Shown here in pieces: positions 2,220-62,142 of a stretch of 64,000 nucleotides of DNA (the first letter of the stretch is position 1; every line of letters begins with the position of its first letter). The notes below the pieces were generated by a model. The model was given only the letters and a program-made list of their open reading frames with translations, was not told the DNA's origin and searched no databases. The DNA is taken from positions 108,465-172,464 of IMG/VR virus record IMGVR_UViG_3300047469_000312. One strand, 5' to 3'. Source of the stretch: a virus. Position numbers and translations under genes: made by a program.

Positions 2220-3644
2220 ATGAATTACCTCACGAATCTCTGGTTGGCGTTTAACGCTTACTCACATTCGAATCCCATGATTGCGGGGGCAGTCTCTCTG
2301 TGGGGTTTAGGCCTAGTCACCTGGGTCTTTCGCAAGATCCCGATGAAGCTCATCAGCAAGATTCACGGCCAGCTCACCACCACGCTCACCTTCGACAATA
2401 CGGAGCTGGGCTGGGCACGGGAGAATTATGCAAGCTTCATGGAGTGGTTCATGCAGAACAAGTGGGCGAAGTATTCGCGCCAGCTGGCTTTGCAGACCTA
2501 CGGTGCGCAGTTCTTTGATCGACACAATGGTCACGGCAGTCGCAATGCGGCTGACGTGGCTATCGGTGACGGTAACCACTTTTTTTTCTTCAAGCGACGC
2601 CTGTTTCTGATGCACCGCCGGACGATGGAAAAGCAAGGCCGCGATAATATCGTCTACGTGGTGACGCTCACCATGTTTGGTCGCAACAAAGCGATCATGC
2701 AAGACCTGGTGGATGTGTTTTGCCACAAGTTCCCGGAGAACAAGCTGAAGCTGATGCGCTTTAAGAGCAATTACTGGGCCGATTACGCGATGCTCGATCG
2801 CCGTGAGTTGAAAACCGTGATTGTCGAGAAGGCACTCAAGCAGTCGCTCGTCAAAGCCATTGAAGACTTCCAGATGAGCGAGGCCTGGTACACTGCGCGG
2901 GGCTTGCCCTGGAAGAAGACCTTTGTGCTGCATGGCGTGCCTGGCACCGGTAAGACCAGTCTCATCAAGGCACTCGCCAGCCACTTCAATCTGAACGTGT
3001 GTCGGTTGAACCTGAATGCGCTCAATGACGAGATGCTGGAAGAGGCACTCGCGAATATTCCGAGCCGCTCCATTCTGGCGATCGAGGACTTTGACTCGGC
3101 AAAAGCTACGCGGCGGCGTTCAGCTATGAAGAGTGACGACAGCACGAAGTACACGGTCGCAGTGAAATACGACAGCAGCGGTAAGCCGAACCTGGAAAGC
3201 GCGATCAATTCGATCAAGGGTCTAGGGGTGGATGACGCGCCGGTTAATCCGATGGCGAAGCTCCTCGAAGACATGGATGGCCTCACGCTCTCCGGTATTC
3301 TGAACGCGCTGGACGGCATTGCCTCGCTGCATGGCACGCTGATCTTCCTCACGACCAATACGCTGGATGACATTGATCCGGCGGTGATTCGTAAGGGTCG
3401 CGTGGACCACGTCTTCGAGATCAAGCCGCTCACGCACAGCGAAGTGCTGGACTACATCGAGCTGATGTTCCCTGGCCGGAGCTCGGAACCCGCTGCGTGC
3501 TTTAGCAGTATCCTGGGGTGTGACCTGCAGGCGCTGTACTTCGAGCATCACGATAACTTCGATCAATTCATCGATGCCATCCCGAAAGTCAACGATCTGG
3601 AAGACACGATTCGCCAGATCGACACTCTCATTAAAGCTGCTTAA
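2220..3644 (+). CDS. BCS1-like AAA+ ATPase with N-terminal membrane segment
   Basis: An AAA+ ATPase of the BCS1/FtsH-like clade. Walker A GVPGTGKT lies at residues 239-246 and Walker B ILAIED at 285-290; LTTNTLDDIDPAVIRKGRVD supplies sensor-1 and the arginine-finger region around 380-395. Residues 18-38 are hydrophobic and could anchor the protein in the membrane, as in mitochondrial BCS1, which moves folded substrates through a membrane. The middle region (40-220) is phage-specific. The start has a GAGGAAG site. The substrate in a phage is unknown; chaperone or translocase activity is inference from the family. Confidence 0.8.
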   Translation: MNYLTNLWLAFNAYSHSNPMIAGAVSLWGLGLVTWVFRKIPMKLISKIHGQLTTTLTFDNTELGWARENYASFMEWFMQNKWAKYSRQLALQTYGAQFFDRHNGHGSRNAADVAIGDGNHFFFFKRRLFLMHRRTMEKQGRDNIVYVVTLTMFGRNKAIMQDLVDVFCHKFPENKLKLMRFKSNYWADYAMLDRRELKTVIVEKALKQSLVKAIEDFQMSEAWYTARGLPWKKTFVLHGVPGTGKTSLIKALASHFNLNVCRLNLNALNDEMLEEALANIPSRSILAIEDFDSAKATRRRSAMKSDDSTKYTVAVKYDSSGKPNLESAINSIKGLGVDDAPVNPMAKLLEDMDGLTLSGILNALDGIASLHGTLIFLTTNTLDDIDPAVIRKGRVDHVFEIKPLTHSEVLDYIELMFPGRSSEPAACFSSILGCDLQALYFEHHDNFDQFIDAIPKVNDLEDTIRQIDTLIKAA

Positions 3645-5329: not shown

Positions 5330-6133
5330 ATGGCAGTAGATGAAAACGTGCTGGCCCATTTGGAATCCATCCGACTGACGTATAACGTCACCATCCTGCA
5401 CGCAGTCGAAGTAGGGAGTCGGGCGTGGGGACTGGCCAACCCACAGAGTGACCATGACATCGGTTTCATCTACGTGCGTCCTAAACACACGTACTTCCAG
5501 ATCAACCAAGGGCATCGCGACGCGGCCTTGCTGGAAAACCGTGACACGCTCGAAATCAAGGTCGACGGCTTTGGCGACTTGAATGGTTTTGACATCGAGA
5601 AGGCCACTACCCTAGCGTACAACTCGAATCCGTCCATCGTCGACTGGCTGCGACTGCCCGAGTATTATTCCACGGATCATGCGAATCGCTTGCGTGAACT
5701 GATGTGGAAAGGTTTCTCGACGTTAAAGCTGCGTCAGCAGAACGTCTCGATCTTGCGGCGCAATTACAAGACCTACGTCGAACCACGCCCCACTGTCTCA
5801 GTGAAGAAGTACCTGCACACCGTGCGGCCGCTATTGAATGCGATCTGGTTCGAACGTACCGCAACCTTCGACCTCGGCACGGAATGTCCGCCGGTGAATT
5901 ACCTGGCATTGTGCAATGTGGCGGCGTACAACCACGACCTGCTCGAAGGCTGCATGCAGCTGTTGCACCTGAAGCTTAAGGGCGAAGAGCGCGTGCAACG
6001 CATCGCTGGCATCGACCGTGTGATTGAGAAGATGCTAGAAAGCCGTGAGATCCCTCAAGGTCTCACCCGTATAGCTCCGGACATTGTCCAGTACGATCGT
6101 TTCTTTGCGGACGTTGTCCTTCAACAGAACTGA
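5330..6133 (+). CDS. RlaP-type nucleotidyltransferase (RNA-repair DNA polymerase beta superfamily)
   Basis: A minimal nucleotidyltransferase. The GS-x(10)-DxD signature sits at residues 29-43 (VGSRAWG, then SDHDIGF with D41 and D43), followed by DGFGDLNGFDIEKA and a conserved NPSIVDWL segment. This pattern fits the PF10127 family (YcgL / RlaP), which occurs in bacterial RNA-repair clusters. It would transfer a nucleotide to an RNA end or other acceptor. The same window encodes a Thg1-like polymerase and an RNA ligase, which supports an RNA-repair role. Family confidence is good; substrate is inference. Confidence 0.75.
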   Translation: MAVDENVLAHLESIRLTYNVTILHAVEVGSRAWGLANPQSDHDIGFIYVRPKHTYFQINQGHRDAALLENRDTLEIKVDGFGDLNGFDIEKATTLAYNSNPSIVDWLRLPEYYSTDHANRLRELMWKGFSTLKLRQQNVSILRRNYKTYVEPRPTVSVKKYLHTVRPLLNAIWFERTATFDLGTECPPVNYLALCNVAAYNHDLLEGCMQLLHLKLKGEERVQRIAGIDRVIEKMLESREIPQGLTRIAPDIVQYDRFFADVVLQQN

Positions 6134-20303: not shown

Positions 20304-22334
20304 ATGAAATCGAATTCGATCAAGAAGAATGCCCTCCTCATCGCTTTGCTCGCTTCTGTCTCGGTTGGCGCTTATGCCAACTGCGGAAACGGCTACAACG
20401 GTAACGGTAACGGCTGCGGCGAAGGTCAAGTCGGCCCGCAAGGCCCGGCAGGCCCCGCAGGTGCCAACGGCAAGGACGGCGCGTCGGTTACTGGCGTGAA
20501 CATCAGCGGTTCGACGGTGACGACCACGCTGTCGAACGGCACATCGGTACAAGGTTCCGTGTCGGGTCTGGCCACCTCGGCTCAGCTGAACAGCACCAAC
20601 CAGAACGTGTCGCAACTGCAGCAGACCACCCAGCAACAAGGCTCGGCGATCAACAGCCTGCAGGTGAACAGCGCCACGCATCAGGAAGTGACCGACACTG
20701 CTGCAGGCACGCTGGCTGCAGCGAACGTGCATACCGACGCTTCGGTGGCGGCTGAAGCAAGCCGTGCCAAAGGCGCGGAAGCCAACCTGCAGTCGCAAGT
20801 AAATGGTGTGTCGAGCACGGCTAACCAAGCCTTGTCGAACTCGCAAGCCGCGCAAGCAACGGCCGGTCAAGCGAAGTCGATCGCGCAAGGTGCAGACGCC
20901 AAGGCCAATACGGCAATCGGCATCGCCACCGGTGCCGCTATCACGGCAACGGGTGCTGCCATCGTCGCGGGTCACGCTGAAGGCGTCGCTGAAGGTGCAG
21001 CAGCTCTTGCACAATCGGCTACGGCTACGGCAAACACCGCCAATGCGAAGGCCGACGCCAACGCAACGGCGATCAGCAAGGAAACCACCCGTGCGACCAC
21101 CGCGGAAGCAGGTCTGCAAACCGGTGTGAACAAGGCGCAAGCGACGGCAGACGCAGCGGGTAAAGCCGCTTCGCATGCACAAGGTACGGCAGATGCCGCC
21201 CTGGTCGTCGGCAGTGCAGCACTCGGTCTGGCAGGTAAGGCAGAAGGCGACGCTCAGCACGCCCAGTCGACCGCGAACACGGCGCTGAATCAGTCCAAGC
21301 AAAACAGCTCGGCTATCTCGGACCTGCAAGCGAACAGCGCAACCCACGCTGAAGTTGCGACCGCCACGCAAACGGCGATCGATACGTCGATGGACTACAC
21401 CAACAACGTCGCGCACGATTTGCAAGCCCAGCAACAAGCCGGTGATGCGGCTACCCTGAGCGCCGCTAACGCGAACGCAGCAGCAGGGGATGCGAAGACG
21501 CTGAAGTCGGCGAACTCGCACGCCGATGCGGCCGCCGCCGCAGCTTACGTCGGTGCAGTGGCTACGTCGGGTGCTTACACCGACTACGTCGCAGGCAAGA
21601 CGCTTAACTCGGCCAAGGGCTACACCGACAAGCAAGTCGGCGCAGAATCGAGCCGTGCCCAAGCTGCCGAAAGCACGTTGCAGTCCAACATCAATACGGA
21701 ATCGAATCGCGCCCAGACTGCGGAAGCAGGCCTGAACACGAAGATCGACAACGAAACGACGCGTGCTACGACGGCAGAAGCCGGACTGCAAACCCAGATC
21801 ACCGGGAATACCCAGTCCATCACCCAGCTCCAAGCTGATGTGAATAAGGGCCAAGTCGGCGCAACCGCGAAGGTGCAGTCGAACAACTCGGTGGCACTCG
21901 GTGCGAACTCGGTGGCTGATCGTGACAATTCGGTGTCGGTGGGTTCCGCCGGTAACGAACGTCAGATCACCAACGTGGCGGCCGGTACGGCGCCGACCGA
22001 TGCAGCGAACGTGGGCCAGGTGAACTACGCGCAGCAACAGTCGTACGCTTACACCGACCGTGCGGTGGCGAACCTGCAGAACCAGTTCGACAGCTACAAG
22101 AAGGACACCTACGGTGGCCTCGCTTCGGTGCTGGCGATCGCGGGTCTGCCGCAACCGACGCAAGCAGGCAAGTCGATGATCTCCGCTGCGGTGTCGAACT
22201 ACCATGGCCAACAAGGCCTGGCAATCGGCGTCTCGACGGTGACCGGTGACAACCACTGGGTCATCAAGGCAGGCGTGTCAACCAGCAGCCGCGGCGACGT
22301 GGCGGCAGTGGGTTCGGCTGGCTTCCAGTTCTAA
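20304..22334 (+). CDS. Trimeric autotransporter adhesin (YadA type)
   Basis: 676 aa. It has a Sec signal peptide (residues 1-25, cleavage probably after AYA), a short collagen-like stretch ([13 protein letters not shown], about 44-56) and a long Ala-rich coiled-coil stalk with repeated [14 protein letters not shown] units. A YadA stalk motif ([20 protein letters not shown]) precedes a C-terminal beta-barrel anchor of about 75 residues with [15 protein letters not shown] and a terminal aromatic (GSAGFQF). This is the full layout of a type Vc outer-membrane adhesin rather than a tail fibre. It has its own promoter-like box and a strong terminator. In a phage it would be a host-surface (moron-type) protein altering adhesion or receptor access. 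Confidence 0.88.
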
Positions 22335-30864: not shown

Positions 30865-30873
30865 TGGTCATAG

Positions 30874-30904
30874 GCCCGGAGGGAAACCTCCGGGCTTTAT
30901 GCCG
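30874..30904 (+). terminator. Hairpin plus TATGCCG cassette
   Basis: GCCCGGAGG (30874-30882), GAAA loop, CCTCCGGGC (30887-30895): a perfect 9-bp stem with a GNRA loop. TTTATGCCGC follows. It ends the RNA ligase unit. Confidence 0.7.
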
Positions 30905-30942: not shown

Positions 30943-33900
30943 ATGAGCTTGATCAAGGCCAAGCTGGCAGCGCTGGTCAAAATACTCGACCCCACTGGCG
31001 CGCTAATGCCACAAGAAGTTCAAGAGCCGCCGGTGTCAACTGAGATGGCTGAGTCTACCGAGACCCTCAGCGTCGATGAAGCTCCTCCACAAGAACCCGC
31101 CGTTGTTGAGCCGGTGGAAGAGCCGATTCCTGAACCTGAACCCGCGCCGCTGGTCGAAGAGCCCGTTGTGGTGGCTGAAGCCGAAGTGGAACCGGAAGCC
31201 GTGGCTGAGCCCGAGCCAACACTCGAACCGACTCCTGAGCCCGAGCCCATCGTGGTCGATGAAGTAGTCGAAGCTGCTCCAGCACCCAAGATGGCTTTAC
31301 GGATGATGGCTGCGCCGCATCGAGCGCTGAAAGCAACCCCGAGCACGAGCCCACTCACATCCTCGTTGCAAAGTCTGCAGACCGCCATGACGGACTTCGT
31401 GGCGCCGTATAACTCAGCGCTCGTGAACACTAAAGTGCAAGAAGCGGTCACTGCCGACAGTGCTGCCGAACTGGGTGGAGCAACACCTGCTGCTGTGATC
31501 ACAGCCTTGGAAGCAGATCTGGATGCTCACGCCGCGACTTACGGTCAATCGCACAACGTCACGCCAGTTCAAGCAGGAACCTATTCGAAAACGCAAGTAG
31601 ATAGCGAGTTGCAGGGTCGAGTGGCCTTTAGCGGCATGCCGCTCACGCGCTATGGGGAGCTCAGTTATCTTCCGGCTGGCGTGTCCGGTTCGTTCGAGGG
31701 TGCTACCACCAACATCGCCCTCTACGGGGAAGCGCGTAACTATCCAGGCATTGTGGAAGATGATGGCACCTTTGTCTTCTTGCGCAGCGGGACCAATGGC
31801 TCCAAGCAAGGGGTGTACTATGCGTACACCAAGAACGTACTGGCTGCCACGGATCTGACGCCCACCCGAACCAACCGCAAGTATGCTCCGGCGTATTTCC
31901 CGTCGGGCTCGAGTGCGCGCTACGTGTGTCGCAGTGACATCAATGGTGCCTGTATTTTGGGCCGACTGCAAGATGCCAGCAACAATCTCACGGGCTGGTT
32001 CCTCTCACTCACGCACGGCACCTTTAACGATGCCAATCATACGGGTTGCGTGATTGCTGCCGGTAGCCTGCCGGGGGTGATTAATAACGCCTACCCGGAA
32101 GCATTCGTCGGCAATGATTCGGTTTTCCTGATCTTCCCCAATGCGGACGTGACGGACAATACTGGCTCACCGGTGGAATACCAGATTTACCAGATTCCCT
32201 TGTCGTCTATCGGCAATGGCAATACCGTTGTCCCCACGGCGCTCACGGGCTGGACGATCAATAGTTTCTACGGGCAGAACATCGCCAGCACCAACATGCG
32301 CTTTGCCAATGCCTGCGTGGATGTGGCAGCCAATCAACCGCTGGTGGTACGTGACCCGAGCGCGAACGGCTGCTACATCGTGCCGTTCTATCCGAACCAG
32401 TTGGGCCACTGTACGTATAGTGCACAAGGCTCGGACGGCAATATCCGCACCCGCATCATGGTGGAGTTCCTGGTGCAAAATCCGGCTACGGGCGAGCAAC
32501 CGGTGGTGAACATGTTCTACACCTTTGTGTGGAATCCCACCAATCGCACGGGTGGTGTGGAGGCGGCCTATAAGGGACCACTCACCGTGGCGGTGAACGG
32601 GAGCAATAACGTCGTGCTCTCGGGACCCATTCTGTTAACGGATCGCAGCGCGATTTCCTCGGGTAACTGGCTCACGGGTGAAACGCTTTCCTATCATCCC
32701 TCGGGCTACTGGGTCTCGGTGGTCGATCAGAACCAACCGGACTTGAACTGCTGGGTGACGCGCTGTAAGTTAAATGCGGGTGCCACTACACCCGTGCTGG
32801 CGTTGGCGGGCGGTCTCACGGTCACCGGCAAGCTTAACACTGTATTCACCCCGGCGTACGGTTCAGCGGTCGGTGGGGGGTTGATGGGTTCGTTTCAGCT
32901 TCCCAATAACCGGGTGATGGTGTACGGTGGTGGCAAGAACGCCGCGGGGAGTTTCCAGACCGATCTGATCTTGGCTCAAAAGGGTGCGGATGGCTACACC
33001 TATAGCTCGCAGAACTTTGGCACGCTCACGGGCTTTGCCCCGAATGCCTACCGGCAGTTCTTAACGGACATCGGGAAAAATCCGATCACGTATGGGGGCA
33101 TGATCAGTGAAATCACCGCAGCAGGCGCAATCACCTGTACGGGCGCTTCGTATATGGAGAACATTTCCAATACGGGCTACACGAACTGTGATAGCAATCT
33201 GACGCTCACGGGCAGTACCTCAATTGCCCCTGCGCTGTATGGTTCGATCAAATCTGCAATGCTCTCGGCATTGGGAGTGGGGGCAGTGGATTCACGTGTG
33301 ACGATCGTGGTGCCGCAGAATGCTTCGATTCCGCCGTTTGCTGTGCTAAACTGGGTCTCCACCGATGCCGTGGCGAGAGACATGGCGGCTTTGGGAGAAC
33401 TCTCCATTACAGCGGGTTCTCGGGCAGGGGCGATTACGGGCTTGTCGCTGGTGTCGGTGTCACCGGCAAAGCAGAATTACAACTTTGCGAGTGGCTTCAC
33501 GGACAACCAGAGTAATTACAAGTACACCTACATGGGTGGCGGCGTGACGATCGTCGAGTGTTCGGACTGCTGGCTCATTGGTGGGTCGTCCAAACACTTC
33601 CTGAATCGAGTGCTCTTCACAGGTGTCTACACGTATCGTTTTGCGGTACCGAAGAGTACGAACCGTCCCGACTGGAATCGCTTGGTGACCAATCCCGTGT
33701 GGGGACAAATCGCCTCGACTTTCTGGGGCGGGGTGCCGGGGAAGGGTTTCGGGGAATTCCAGCAGCTGGTGACGAATTCCGATGACCTGACTAAGCTCAC
33801 GTTCCGACCCTTTGCGACCAACCTCTCGACCTACGATGCGTGGACGCAGTCCACGCAAGCCAATTGGTCGGTGCAGGTGTCGCAGGATGTGGCACAAGGC

Positions 33901-34260
33901 TGGATTGTCTACTTTACGGACATTCAGCCCCTGATCATGAATGGCGTGTATTACAAGCTACAACCCGCCACGATTGATCTCACCACCATCCAGGCCAGCC
34001 CGGCGAACACGACCTTCTATATCTACGTGGTGTTCACCAATGGGACTCCAGCGTACGTGATTCGCACCACCGATCAGCCCGAGTCACCGACTGTGCTGTT
34101 CGTGGGCACGCTAGTCACCAACGCAACGCAGATCAGCGCGATCAACATGCAAAAGGTCACGCGGCTGGGGAACTATCGGGTCTCCGCCACGCGTGCAGGC
34201 GGCGCGATTCCGGTTTCGGCAGGCACGCCGGATGCCACTGCAGCACTTATCTGGAAGTAA
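30943..34260 (+). CDS. Large tail fibre / receptor-binding protein, 1105 aa
   Basis: Residues 20-115 are a disordered acidic linker rich in Pro, Glu and Val. Then comes a fibre-type region (ELGGATPAAVITALEADLDA, HNVTPVQAGTYSKTQVDSEL), a long beta-rich body, and a C-terminal tip ending YRVSATRAGGAIPVSAGTPD. The linker-and-tip layout and position indicate a virion host-recognition fibre. The tip and the TYSKTQVDS module are shared with the smaller fibre at 34356, so the two are related by duplication or domain exchange. GAGGACATC precedes the start. Confidence 0.78.
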   Translation: MSLIKAKLAALVKILDPTGALMPQEVQEPPVSTEMAESTETLSVDEAPPQEPAVVEPVEEPIPEPEPAPLVEEPVVVAEAEVEPEAVAEPEPTLEPTPEPEPIVVDEVVEAAPAPKMALRMMAAPHRALKATPSTSPLTSSLQSLQTAMTDFVAPYNSALVNTKVQEAVTADSAAELGGATPAAVITALEADLDAHAATYGQSHNVTPVQAGTYSKTQVDSELQGRVAFSGMPLTRYGELSYLPAGVSGSFEGATTNIALYGEARNYPGIVEDDGTFVFLRSGTNGSKQGVYYAYTKNVLAATDLTPTRTNRKYAPAYFPSGSSARYVCRSDINGACILGRLQDASNNLTGWFLSLTHGTFNDANHTGCVIAAGSLPGVINNAYPEAFVGNDSVFLIFPNADVTDNTGSPVEYQIYQIPLSSIGNGNTVVPTALTGWTINSFYGQNIASTNMRFANACVDVAANQPLVVRDPSANGCYIVPFYPNQLGHCTYSAQGSDGNIRTRIMVEFLVQNPATGEQPVVNMFYTFVWNPTNRTGGVEAAYKGPLTVAVNGSNNVVLSGPILLTDRSAISSGNWLTGETLSYHPSGYWVSVVDQNQPDLNCWVTRCKLNAGATTPVLALAGGLTVTGKLNTVFTPAYGSAVGGGLMGSFQLPNNRVMVYGGGKNAAGSFQTDLILAQKGADGYTYSSQNFGTLTGFAPNAYRQFLTDIGKNPITYGGMISEITAAGAITCTGASYMENISNTGYTNCDSNLTLTGSTSIAPALYGSIKSAMLSALGVGAVDSRVTIVVPQNASIPPFAVLNWVSTDAVARDMAALGELSITAGSRAGAITGLSLVSVSPAKQNYNFASGFTDNQSNYKYTYMGGGVTIVECSDCWLIGGSSKHFLNRVLFTGVYTYRFAVPKSTNRPDWNRLVTNPVWGQIASTFWGGVPGKGFGEFQQLVTNSDDLTKLTFRPFATNLSTYDAWTQSTQANWSVQVSQDVAQGWIVYFTDIQPLIMNGVYYKLQPATIDLTTIQASPANTTFYIYVVFTNGTPAYVIRTTDQPESPTVLFVGTLVTNATQISAINMQKVTRLGNYRVSATRAGGAIPVSAGTPDATAALIWK

Positions 34261-46547: not shown

Positions 46548-46989
46548 GCCCGATGAGCAACTGACGCCTTACGAGCGGCAGCTGAAGTACGGCGAGAACG
46601 GTGACCCGCAGCAACTGAACCCGTATATCGACCAAGCGCTCGCGTTGATGGAAGAGTGCGACAAGTGGAATGTCGACAAAGTCTTCCAGAAGGCATGGCG
46701 CGTCGGTAAGGGTTATGTCAATTCGCGCAGTCTTTGGGACCTGGTGAAGGCACGCATCATTGCGCAGCTCAAAGAGCAGGCTCGTAAATCGATCCAGTCT
46801 TACCTCAGCGATCATGACGCGTTGCTGGGTTTCATGACTGAAGATGCTCGCTGGCACCATACGCGGGCTAACCTGGTGACGGTGTTGTTTGAGGTCACGG
46901 GCGGCGGTGTCGCGCTGGACGAGCTGGCTCAGGTGGCTGACGAAGCGATCGCCGACTGTATCAAAGCTAACCAAGGGGGGAGAGCGTGA
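46522..46989 (+). CDS. Hypothetical protein, 155 aa
   Basis: Not recognised. GAGGAGG fixes the ATG at 46522 despite overlap with the RHH gene. The product starts MYPKDLMTRPDEQLTPYERQ; all-helical, soluble. Confidence 0.72.
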   Translation: MYPKDLMTRPDEQLTPYERQLKYGENGDPQQLNPYIDQALALMEECDKWNVDKVFQKAWRVGKGYVNSRSLWDLVKARIIAQLKEQARKSIQSYLSDHDALLGFMTEDARWHHTRANLVTVLFEVTGGGVALDELAQVADEAIADCIKANQGGRA

Positions 46990-47417
46990 GCCGGAGTTCC
47001 GCGATTCGCAGACGTCGTAAAATCATGCGTGGCATTGGGGTCAAGCGCCTCACCTATCGGCAACAGATGGAACACATTGCCGTGAGGACGGTGAAACGCA
47101 TTATCGCCACCGTTGGCTGGGATCACGTGAAGTTCATGCAAGACACGTCGTTCTCCTTGGAAGCGGCTATCACCCCGGAACGAGAAGCTCTCGTCGAGCA
47201 AATTTTGCTCGAGCAGGGGTATCTTAAGACACGCACCGGAGAGTTCGTCCACAAGAAGATGCGCTTGTCGGACTTCGCTTCAATAGGTGCGATAAGTATT
47301 GTGCCTACCGTTATCAGCGAACCTGATCGAATGCCAGGGGCTTTTGGCTGGCCGGAAATCACTCCGGAAGAAATCAAGGCCGTCGAAGAACGGCTCGCGG
47401 CGCCACACGGTATCTGA
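46986..47417 (+). CDS. Hypothetical basic protein with GTG start, 143 aa
   Basis: GTG at 46986 follows GGGGGGAGA. The product starts with a basic stretch (SRSSAIRRRRKIMRGIGVKR), a possible nucleic-acid-binding tail, then a mixed domain. Not recognised. It is the last gene before a structured element. Confidence 0.68.
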   Translation: MSRSSAIRRRRKIMRGIGVKRLTYRQQMEHIAVRTVKRIIATVGWDHVKFMQDTSFSLEAAITPEREALVEQILLEQGYLKTRTGEFVHKKMRLSDFASIGAISIVPTVISEPDRMPGAFGWPEITPEEIKAVEERLAAPHGI

Positions 47418-47428
47418 GCTGTATTAGT

Positions 47429-47594
47429 GCTAGTCACCTGAGTGCTGGGCGCGGCGCTCACGGGGAGTGGTCCATCGTGCCGGTTTTCAGGTTTGGCCGG
47501 ATTATCAAGTCGGTGGGAAAAGGCCCGTTGGTAGGGGTGAGGGGCGTGGAAACCTCTCTGCCTGAATCCAACCCCCAGCACTCAGGTGATTGGT
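47429..47594 (+). ncRNA. Large inverted-repeat structured element (166 bp)
   Basis: TCACCTGAGTGCTGGG (47434-47449) is perfectly complementary to CCCAGCACTCAGGTGA (47574-47589); wobble pairs extend the helix by about five further positions (47429-47433 with 47590-47594). The 124-nt interior contains CTCAC/GTGAG (47457-47461 with 47537-47541), CCGG/CCGG (47480-47483 with 47497-47500) and GAGG/CCTC near 47539-47556. It could be a structured RNA or a miniature inverted-repeat mobile element; no target-site duplication is evident. No known riboswitch or ribozyme was recognised. Confidence 0.5.
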
Positions 47595-47624
47595 GAGCCA
47601 TATGCGCATAGCCGGGGATTCACA

Positions 47625-47954
47625 ATGTCTGATTTAGTTCGGAGTTCAGTAAGGGAGACAGTCGAACTGCTCTATGGCCTGATTGCCAATCCTGAATCGA
47701 TCGATAAGTTTGCTGCTTTCTTTAGCAAAATCAACGAGCGAGCGTTCGTGATGTCGGTGTCAGAGGGTAGGTACAACAATAAAGAACTCGGAACTGTGGT
47801 GACCATTACGGTCCACGACAGCAAAGGCACGTTTGAACTGCTGCAGGGTTTTCTACCCTTGGCAGAAGAGATGTTTGAAAGAACAGGTAAGCGCTACTTC
47901 ACGGACTTCTTCGAGCCAGAGTTTGGTTCGATTCTGCTGATTGATAGCGAATAG
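47625..47954 (+). CDS. Hypothetical protein, 109 aa
   Basis: Not recognised. The ATG at 47625 has GGGGA upstream; an ATG at 47600-47602 and a start at 47586 would lie in or next to the inverted repeat. The product starts MSDLVRSSVRETVELLYGLI; helical, then mixed. Confidence 0.68.
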   Translation: MSDLVRSSVRETVELLYGLIANPESIDKFAAFFSKINERAFVMSVSEGRYNNKELGTVVTITVHDSKGTFELLQGFLPLAEEMFERTGKRYFTDFFEPEFGSILLIDSE

Positions 47955-47989: not shown

Positions 47990-48871
47990 ATGACCACCAT
48001 CCTTTACCACGACGGCCGACTCTTTGCTGACTCTACTATCTACAAGGGTAGTGATCGCATCAACAGTCTGGAAAAGATCGTGTTGCTGAACCCGCCGTTT
48101 AAAATCCTCTCGGACAGGCCGGAGTTCGAATTCAATGACATCGTCTACGGCTACTCGGGCACGGGCAGCCAGGACGCAATGGAGGCCTTTGCTGAGCACT
48201 TGCAGGGCAATGTCAAGGAGCGCGAGGATAGCAAGCTCACGCTCGCTTTCTACGACATGATCTCGACCTCCAACATGGTGGTGCCAGGCAATACGTTCGA
48301 GATCTTCTTCATCGGCGAGCAAGCCAACCACAGTTTTCGGTTGGACCACCACGGCTTTATCTACACGCGCTACGAGCTGGATCAAACCGTGGCGCTGGGC
48401 AGTGGCTCGCAAGACGTGATTCGCAATATCACGCACCACCGGGACCCGATTCGCGCGATGATGGAAACCTTCATCACCGATACAACCTCGGGTGGCTGGA
48501 TCGACTGTTGGGCGCTGCGCGAAGACGATGGTCTCAAGCGCTTTCGACGTGTGGGGTTGTGTGAGCCGATTCCCACTGATCTGATTCGGGCAGTGATGGA
48601 GAAGTTCCATGCCGACATGGAAGAGATCCCGCTGCAATTCGTGCGCAATGCGAAGAACACGCAGGACATCATCAACATTGCCAATATGAATCAGAAGCTG
48701 TTCGATCAGAATAAGCGCCTGAAAAAGCAGCTTGACATCTTGCGCAAGCAGGGCGTGCCCATTCCGGTCGTGCCGACGAAGGTCGCCAAGACGAAGCCCA
48801 AAACCCAGAAGCTGCCCTACACCAAGCTCTCCGGTGAAAAGGCAGTCACTGAGGTGAAGAAAAATAAGTAA
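47990..48871 (+). CDS. Hypothetical protein, 293 aa
   Basis: Not recognised. The ATG at 47990 is preferred to an upstream TTG. The product starts MTTILYHDGRLFADSTIYKG, which resembles the opening strand of N-terminal-nucleophile hydrolases (T2/T3 next to TILYHDG), a resemblance only. The C-terminus is a coiled coil (MNQKLFDQNKRLKKQLDILR) and a basic tail. Confidence 0.74.
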   Translation: MTTILYHDGRLFADSTIYKGSDRINSLEKIVLLNPPFKILSDRPEFEFNDIVYGYSGTGSQDAMEAFAEHLQGNVKEREDSKLTLAFYDMISTSNMVVPGNTFEIFFIGEQANHSFRLDHHGFIYTRYELDQTVALGSGSQDVIRNITHHRDPIRAMMETFITDTTSGGWIDCWALREDDGLKRFRRVGLCEPIPTDLIRAVMEKFHADMEEIPLQFVRNAKNTQDIINIANMNQKLFDQNKRLKKQLDILRKQGVPIPVVPTKVAKTKPKTQKLPYTKLSGEKAVTEVKKNK

Positions 48872-60803: not shown

Positions 60804-60831
60804 CGTATACAACCACTTACAATTGAAACAA
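60804..60831 (-). promoter_or_regulatory. Possible - strand promoter for the array
   Basis: On the - strand, TTGTTT (60826-60831) and TATACG (60804-60809) lie 16 nt apart in the gap between the tas start and the array. This is a weak sigma70-like pair reading into the array. Confidence 0.25.
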
Positions 60832-60843
60832 GGAAACCGAATC

Positions 60844-62142
60844 ATGAATACCCCGATCATCGCCCCGACCTACAACCCGAATCTCGCTGTGATTCGCACC
60901 ATGGTGCGCTCAGCCTACGACATGCAGGGTCTGCGCATTCAGATGGGGAACCGCGTGACCGCCAGCTTCAAAGCCAAGCTCGGTCTGCGTCAGGACGGCA
61001 TGAGCGAGGCCGAACTCGAGAAGCAGGAAAAGAACCTGCTCGAGCAGTTGCGCAAGTCCTATCGTCGTATCACTGACGGCATCATCGACGAGCACCACGA
61101 CGACACCACAGAAGCCATCGAAACGATGACCGCTAAGCTTCCCACCGAGAAGAAATTCAAGGGCGACGAGCTCATCACGCACTACAGCGAACTGCTGCTG
61201 GTGGATAACTACCTGAACACGCTCAAGAACGAAGAGCACCACTTCAAGGACATGGAGCGGATTCTGAAGAAGATCCCGATCTACACAGAGTTCTTGTCCG
61301 GGGTGCGCGGCATTGGTCCGGCTTTGGCGGGCATCATCGTCTCCGAAATCGACATCACCAAGGCCGAGTATCCGTCAAGCCTGTGGAAGCTCGCTGGGCT
61401 GGACGTGGTGCATATTGGCAAGTACGTCGACGACAAGGGTCGTGAGCAGACCGTGCGCGGGCAAGAAATCGACGCCTGGTACGCCGACAGCAAGAACTTC
61501 GATCTGCCGATGCTCGCCGAAGGCAAGTACCCGGTGACCTTCGAAGCAGTTGGTCGGTCGCGGCGCGACTTCTGTTTGGTGCAGAAGGAATACACCAATC
61601 GCGAGGGCGAGCAGGCGTTGCGGGATTCGATCACCTTCAACCCGTTCCTGAAGACTAAGCTGATCGGCGTGGCCGGTACCTCGTTCTTGCGCGCAGGCAT
61701 CTCCACCGTGGATGGCAAGAAAGTCGGCGCAGTCCGTCGACTGGAACTGGCCAAGGAAGAAGGCTTTGATCCGAAGGACTACGCGGAGATGGACGAAGAC
61801 CAAGCTGTCATCATCTATCTGCGCGCCAAGGGTCACACGGTAGTCGTCGAACCGAGCCCGTATGCGGTGATCTACAACAATTACAAGAACCGCCTGAAGA
61901 ACGATCCGCGCCACGCTGAGAAGACGGACCTGCATAAGCACAACATGGCGATCCGCTATATGGTCAAGCGCTTCTTGGTCGATCTGTACAACAAGTGGCG
62001 GGCGCTGGAAGGTCTGGTCGTCGCTCCGGAGTACTCGGAAGGCGTGCTGGGCAAGGTGCACGGCGTCGCGAAGGAAGCTGGTTGGCAACACCCGCGTTAC
62101 CGCGCCGCGACGGGCGGTCAGCATCCCAATCACTCAGCCTAA
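60844..62142 (+). CDS. Nop/Transposase_20-domain protein, probable Tas protein of the nuclease-less (TasA) type
   Basis: 432 aa. An N-terminal region is followed by a long helical stretch (about 50-145) and then LSGVRGIGPALAGIIVSEI (152-169), the helix-hairpin-helix-like signature of the IS110/IS116 Transposase_20 domain, continuing WKLAGLDVV. A C-terminal helical part (YAVIYNNYKNRLKNDP..., KHNMAIRYMVKRFLVDLYNK) matches the end of the same domain. This domain is related to the Nop domain of box C/D RNPs and of Tas proteins. No DEDD (RuvC-like) transposase domain and no HNH or RuvC nuclease is visible, so it should bind RNA-guided DNA without cutting it. AAGGAAA precedes the ATG. The 36-bp array lies 47 nt upstream. 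Confidence 0.82.
   Translation: MNTPIIAPTYNPNLAVIRTMVRSAYDMQGLRIQMGNRVTASFKAKLGLRQDGMSEAELEKQEKNLLEQLRKSYRRITDGIIDEHHDDTTEAIETMTAKLPTEKKFKGDELITHYSELLLVDNYLNTLKNEEHHFKDMERILKKIPIYTEFLSGVRGIGPALAGIIVSEIDITKAEYPSSLWKLAGLDVVHIGKYVDDKGREQTVRGQEIDAWYADSKNFDLPMLAEGKYPVTFEAVGRSRRDFCLVQKEYTNREGEQALRDSITFNPFLKTKLIGVAGTSFLRAGISTVDGKKVGAVRRLELAKEEGFDPKDYAEMDEDQAVIIYLRAKGHTVVVEPSPYAVIYNNYKNRLKNDPRHAEKTDLHKHNMAIRYMVKRFLVDLYNKWRALEGLVVAPEYSEGVLGKVHGVAKEAGWQHPRYRAATGGQHPNHSA

Follow-up and report, generated by a model that had tools for sequence, protein, structure and literature searches.

The stretch of DNA analyzed here (the window) comprises the last 64,000 nucleotides (nt) of virus record IMGVR_UViG_3300047469_000312 (positions 108,465 to 172,464 of 172,464 bp). 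On its plus strand it carries a 166-bp element, bounded by an inverted repeat, that a first-pass annotation took to be either a novel structured RNA or a miniature inverted-repeat element. Comparison with related phages indicates that the element is a conserved structured RNA and not a mobile element. Its features are as follows.

47428 to 47595, plus strand: whole structured RNA, delimited by the outer ends of closing helix P1 (six-sequence consensus fold and pair counts; covariance model match in 6/6 copies)
47428 to 47449, plus strand: P1 5′ arm, containing 47434-47449; pairs with 47574-47595
47574 to 47595, plus strand: P1 3′ arm, containing 47574-47589; pairs with 47428-47449
47455 to 47469, plus strand: P2 hairpin CRCUC-[ACGGG]-GAGYG; second pair A-U, G-U or G-C among copies
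47471 to 47517, plus strand: P3 stem-loop (47471-47477 with 47511-47517), enclosing P3b
47480-47485 with 47495-47500, plus strand: P3b hairpin CCGGUU/GGCCGG, invariant
47527 to 47572, plus strand: P4 stem GUUGG/CCAAC with terminal hairpin (47539-47544/47553-47558); stem invariant
47462 to 47526, plus strand: candidate pseudoknot, P2 loop GGG (47462-47464) with CCC (47524-47526); possible in all copies, invariant
47490 to 47569, plus strand: candidate long-range pairing, GGUUUGG (47490-47496) with CCUGAAUCC (47562-47569), U47567 bulged

Closing helix and conserved fold

As first described, TCACCTGAGTGCTGGG (47434-47449) is the exact reverse complement of CCCAGCACTCAGGTGA (47574-47589). These two arms form the sole perfect inverted repeat of at least 16 bp with a spacer of up to 300 nt in the window, and no repeat of this kind occurred in 100 random windows generated with a first-order Markov model. 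On the plus strand, P1 extends outward from this 16-bp core to 47428/47595 through G·U, A-U and C-G pairs, giving a consensus length of 22 bp. The wobbles U47428·G47595, G47429·U47594, U47431·G47592 and G47433·U47590 are all mismatched on the minus strand, which bears out the earlier suggestion that the wobble extension favors an RNA function.

Covariation was counted on a sequence-based alignment of six sequences: the window; its near relatives G002, G003 and G004 (IMG/VR contigs of 311 to 315 kb); Burkholderia phage FLC9, the nearest cultured phage (322 kb); and a distant relative, G001 (254 kb; terminase 57% identical to that of FLC9). Pairing-preserving changes on both sides were found in 10 of the 22 P1 pairs; the window and FLC9 by themselves already differ by replacements of A-U with G-C and of C-G with U-A. 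In G001 most of P1 is replaced, so that the arm letters are largely different, yet a 25-bp helix is retained. That helix contains many G·U pairs, which form on the plus strand only (duplex energy, −38.8 kcal/mol on the plus strand versus −29.4 kcal/mol on the minus strand). The closing arms are free to diverge provided that pairing persists.

The further stems that had been suspected in the interior are real features of the consensus fold, in which P1 encloses the hairpin P2, the stem-loop P3/P3b and the stem P4, and they are conserved across copies. P3 varies in sequence with 95% of its cells still paired and one double change, and the terminal hairpin of P4 shows two compensatory pairs. Over the whole fold, compensatory changes occur at 14 pairs, a number reached by none of 500 shuffles, and there are 17 double-change cells where 4.2 are expected (a count matched in 0/500 shuffles, with relatedness among the copies left in place). 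Paired cells make up 97.4% of the consensus; this falls to 34 to 51% when partners are slid by 1 to 3 columns. Contact between the P2 loop and CCC is possible, its invariance neither supporting nor refuting a pseudoknot. The candidate pairing of GGUUUGG with CCUGAAUCC can form 7/7 pairs in all copies, with one-sided changes at two of them (U-G/U-A and G-U/G-C), and it cannot coexist with part of P4 and P3b. A CAGG/CCUG loop contact was rejected, as it is not retained in FLC9.

Single-sequence folding gave similar z scores on both strands (−3.0 plus, −3.6 minus) and thus leaves the strand undecided. It is the comparative consensus energy that separates the two (−78.4 kcal/mol plus versus −58.1 kcal/mol minus), and the RNA is read from the plus strand.

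Carrier phages and gene neighborhood

The six copies fall into three lineages (the window with G002 to G004, FLC9, and G001), with a single copy in each genome of ~254 to 322 kb. The FLC9 copy, 84.6% identical over 162 nt, was the sole credible DNA match among 50,697 phage records; the copies in G002, G003, G004 and G001 were located by pattern scans of IMG/VR. Covariance models were built for the whole element (R1) and the core (R2), and scores were 141 to 207 bits in 6/6 copies. The proposed search for further copies thus yielded one per genome and covarying copies in relatives, as the RNA view had predicted.

Searches with R1 and R2 found no credible copy in ~80 other records found by their terminases, many of which are fragments. 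These records include LucasX, phiKZ, Noxifer, FLC6, 201phi2-1, PA1C, Psa21 and Goslar, and stricter score filters applied to named phages in one of the searches. Nor did contigs of bacterial genomes or plasmids give a credible match. Pattern hits in metagenome-assembled genomes of Rubripirellula and Marinobacter were rejected, having only a 21-nt motif in common with the element. A weak hit in record G020 (14 bits) aligned poorly and lay inside apparently protein-coding sequence, and a 12-bit hit over 37 nt in LucasX was gone with the core model.

The carriers, FLC9 among them, form a clade of jumbo phages that are phiKZ-like and encode chimallin-like shell proteins. Because their terminases are phiKZ-like and they encode relatives of the phiKZ shell protein PHIKZ054 (ChmA; E values of 9e-26 in G003, 1e-25 in FLC9 and 8e-17 in G001), they are very likely nucleus-forming phages, as judged from these protein matches. 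FLC9 has been placed in one family with the Chimalliviridae members FLC6 and FLC8, in an unnamed genus (PMC12388082). A tail-fiber-like gene of the window (30943-34260) was rejected as a marker for finding relatives, since it is shared too widely among phages.

The element of the window shares 96.9 to 98.8% identity with the copies in its near relatives, compared with 79 to 93% for the upstream gene. Between G003 and FLC9 it is 84.6% identical, and the tRNA-Asn/tRNA-Tyr array is 84.4% identical. The G001 interior is ~82% identical with arms mostly different in letters; against G003, its 126-nt core (81.7%) has the top identity among segments of at least 100 nt (103 matching segments). Apart from the element itself, nothing in the flanking 7.5 kb of the window matched the phage collection at the DNA level. 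The neighboring genes, given for context only, are the following.

46986 to 47417, plus strand: upstream protein gene, FLC9 gp199-like; product 74 to 89% identical in near relatives and 44% in FLC9, where the gene lies downstream of the RNA
47625 to 47954, plus strand: downstream protein gene, FLC9 gp198-like; product 59% identical in FLC9

Gene order in the window is gp199-like, RNA, gp198-like; in FLC9 it is gp200, RNA, gp199, gp198; and in G001 it is a divergent gene, the RNA, a 101-amino-acid frame and phosphatase genes. The downstream gene therefore differs in all three lineages, and homologues of gp199 and gp198 were not found in the G001 contig. The possibility raised at first, that a single copy is conserved in place, stands as far as the single copy kept in relatives is concerned; its place does not hold, since, with the gp198/gp197 genes as reference, the RNA is found on one side of the gp199-like gene in FLC9 and on the other side in the window, and among other neighbors in G001. 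Given these differing neighbors, and the missing gp199 and gp198 in G001, the RNA is independent of its flanking genes. The upstream stop codon is 2 nt from P1 in FLC9 and 10 nt in the window. A promoter would not fit into these gaps, an indication that the RNA is released from a longer transcript. In G001, ~42 nt separate the RNA from the divergent gene, as measured from its putative start codon.

FLC9 gp200 (L002:7743-7997), directly upstream of the RNA, is a very basic protein of 84 amino acids, a homologue of which was not detected in G003, G001, LucasX or two further records (G035 and G013). Two genes 3′ of the RNA, the window encodes an HslV-like peptidase family protein (47990-48871), also present in FLC9. 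Elsewhere, a 40-nt stretch at 30865-30904, single copy in the window and identical in G003 and FLC9, contains a perfect hairpin, GCCCGGAGG-GAAA-CCTCCGGGC, with CTTTAT after it; the stretch lies a short distance 5′ of the tail-fiber-like gene, which encodes 1,105 amino acids. A tRNA array in G003 (G003:C1:119290-119963; L249:19290-19963) has ARAGORN anticodons for Phe (AAA) and His (ATG), compared with GAA and GTG in FLC9, and a tRNA-His guanylyltransferase gene is present in the same phage (window 9687-10670). The window also encodes a BCS1-like AAA ATPase (2220-3644; Pfam AAA and BCS1_N) that weakly resembles the defense ATPases TRIP13 and IetA, and a 676-amino-acid protein (20304-22334) with a terminal YadA-like membrane anchor domain, which is an unusual feature in a phage.

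Interpretation and alternatives

The explanation we favor, with moderate confidence, is that the element is the gene of a conserved structured non-coding RNA of ~165 to 190 nt on the plus strand, trans-acting and processed at P1. Its architecture is a P1 of 22 to 25 bp around a conserved multi-branch core with three stem-loops, and a coding signal is lacking: indels break the frame, and variation is concentrated at paired positions. The RNA would share a transcript with the plus-strand genes around it and be excised at P1, a double-stranded region of the type processed by RNase III, with which the predicted P1 length is compatible; in G001 it may start its own transcript. Once released, the stable RNA could act in trans, most likely through a protein bound by the conserved core. 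A partner protein exclusive to the RNA-bearing phages was sought, and the candidate list was too long and noisy for use.

Several points weigh against this explanation. A coding start lies 18 to 35 nt downstream of the element in all three lineages. These are the only independent lineages, so that the support for any one pair consists of one or two changes, and the shuffles leave relatedness among the copies in place. Shape alone suggests both cleavage by RNase III and binding of a protein.

The distance to the next start codon, together with a location between co-directional genes in two lineages, a P1 long enough for RNase III and the 5′-leader-like position of the G001 copy just past a divergent gene, is what a cis-acting element of a polycistronic mRNA would show. 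Such an intercistronic or leader structure would set processing, stability or translation of the next gene and have no independent life. It is the main rival, though we judge it decidedly less probable than a trans-acting RNA: the next gene differs per lineage, with neither window neighbor in G001; one copy per ~254- to 322-kb genome does not suit a general mRNA element; and the unpaired core is conserved like a tRNA, beyond the needs of a processing hairpin.

A riboswitch or protein-sensing leader of one particular gene would likewise account for a multi-branched conserved core followed by a start codon. This is improbable, because the three lineages have three different downstream genes, with no conserved target; moreover, no Rfam family matched at a useful score, and no terminator-like site lies nearby on the element's strand.

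Of the two possibilities in the first-pass annotation, only the RNA stands, with covarying pairs and a single copy in each of six records. A miniature inverted-repeat transposable element could have inverted ends, a length of 166 bp and positions that shift across lineages, but it is very unlikely here. Every genome has one copy, with neither multiple copies nor a visible flanking duplication of a target. The ends are fully diverged in G001 around a conserved middle, which is the opposite of the transposon pattern, where terminal repeats are read by a transposase, and both the compensatory changes and the wobbles are hallmarks of RNA. A conserved small protein gene, such as the minus-strand open frame at 47123-47581 that is also seen in FLC9 and G001, is just as improbable: short frame stretches match between phages (65 to 72% over 25 to 40 residues), but gaps of 1 nt and 3 nt inside the element (window versus FLC9 and G001) break the frame, variation tracks base pairs and not codons, and the match stops at the RNA end.

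If the RNA does act in trans, we tentatively suggest that it may represent a new class of protein-bound RNA specific to this clade of nucleus-forming jumbo phages and serving the phage nucleus, phage polymerases or counter-defense, in which the two exclusive pairings could constitute a conformational switch. The RNA of the FLC9 clade is conserved like a tRNA while the surrounding protein genes change, and so it probably has a function that the phage can hardly do without. Since FLC9 is cultured, the RNA is accessible to direct detection, deletion and pull-down; antisense oligomers have already been used for silencing in phiKZ-type phages (PMC12571901).

Comparison with known RNA systems

Rfam searches gave no hit in the window, and permissive searches of the copies in the window, its near relatives, FLC9 and G001 returned chance-level matches only; ARAGORN and Rfam found no tRNA or transfer-messenger RNA in the window. 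GOLLD, ROOL and OLE are far larger than the element, and they are in Rfam, whereas the element shows no similarity to them. They are large ornate structured RNAs with no coding role, some of them phage-borne (PMC12286853).

The window encodes a protein with a transposase-annotated PHROG match (60823-62142; E value of 1.5e-26) and only weak Pfam matches, almost identical in G002 to G004 and absent from FLC9 and G001. A guide-RNA role based on this gene was rejected, as FLC9 and G001 carry the RNA without it.

YrlA and other bacterial Y RNAs have a closing helix formed from both ends, an internal domain and an association with RNA-repair genes. The element resembles them in its closing helix and internal domain, and its genome encodes an RlaP family nucleotidyltransferase of the RNA repair pathway (window 5330-6133). 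A Y-RNA identity, raised by this gene and a D-loop-like GUUGGUA, was rejected because the Ro (TROVE) protein was not found: PF05731 was absent from the six records, including complete FLC9, while a control genome was positive.

The intercistronic RNase III sites of T7 are short simple hairpins present in several copies. Like them, the element lies between co-directional phage genes and has a helix long enough for RNase III; unlike them, it occurs once per genome, and its multi-branch interior is strongly conserved.

Nucleus-forming jumbo phages have very few known non-coding RNAs, namely, two candidates from phiKZ derived from untranslated regions (UTRs), neither of which was assigned to a conserved family. 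These RNAs, of ~100 nt from the PHIKZ298 3′ UTR and ~180 nt from the p40 5′ UTR, were identified by Grad-seq and northern blotting (PMC8545117). Searching phiKZ with R1 gave no match and hence no homology to them. Whereas they have two-stem folds (PMC8545117), the element, known here from sequence alone, has a long closing helix and a multi-branch core. In common with them, it is a structured non-coding RNA of similar size that a nucleus-forming jumbo phage carries and that apparently comes from an mRNA by release, and their release from UTRs (PMC8545117) provides a precedent for the mode of birth that we propose.
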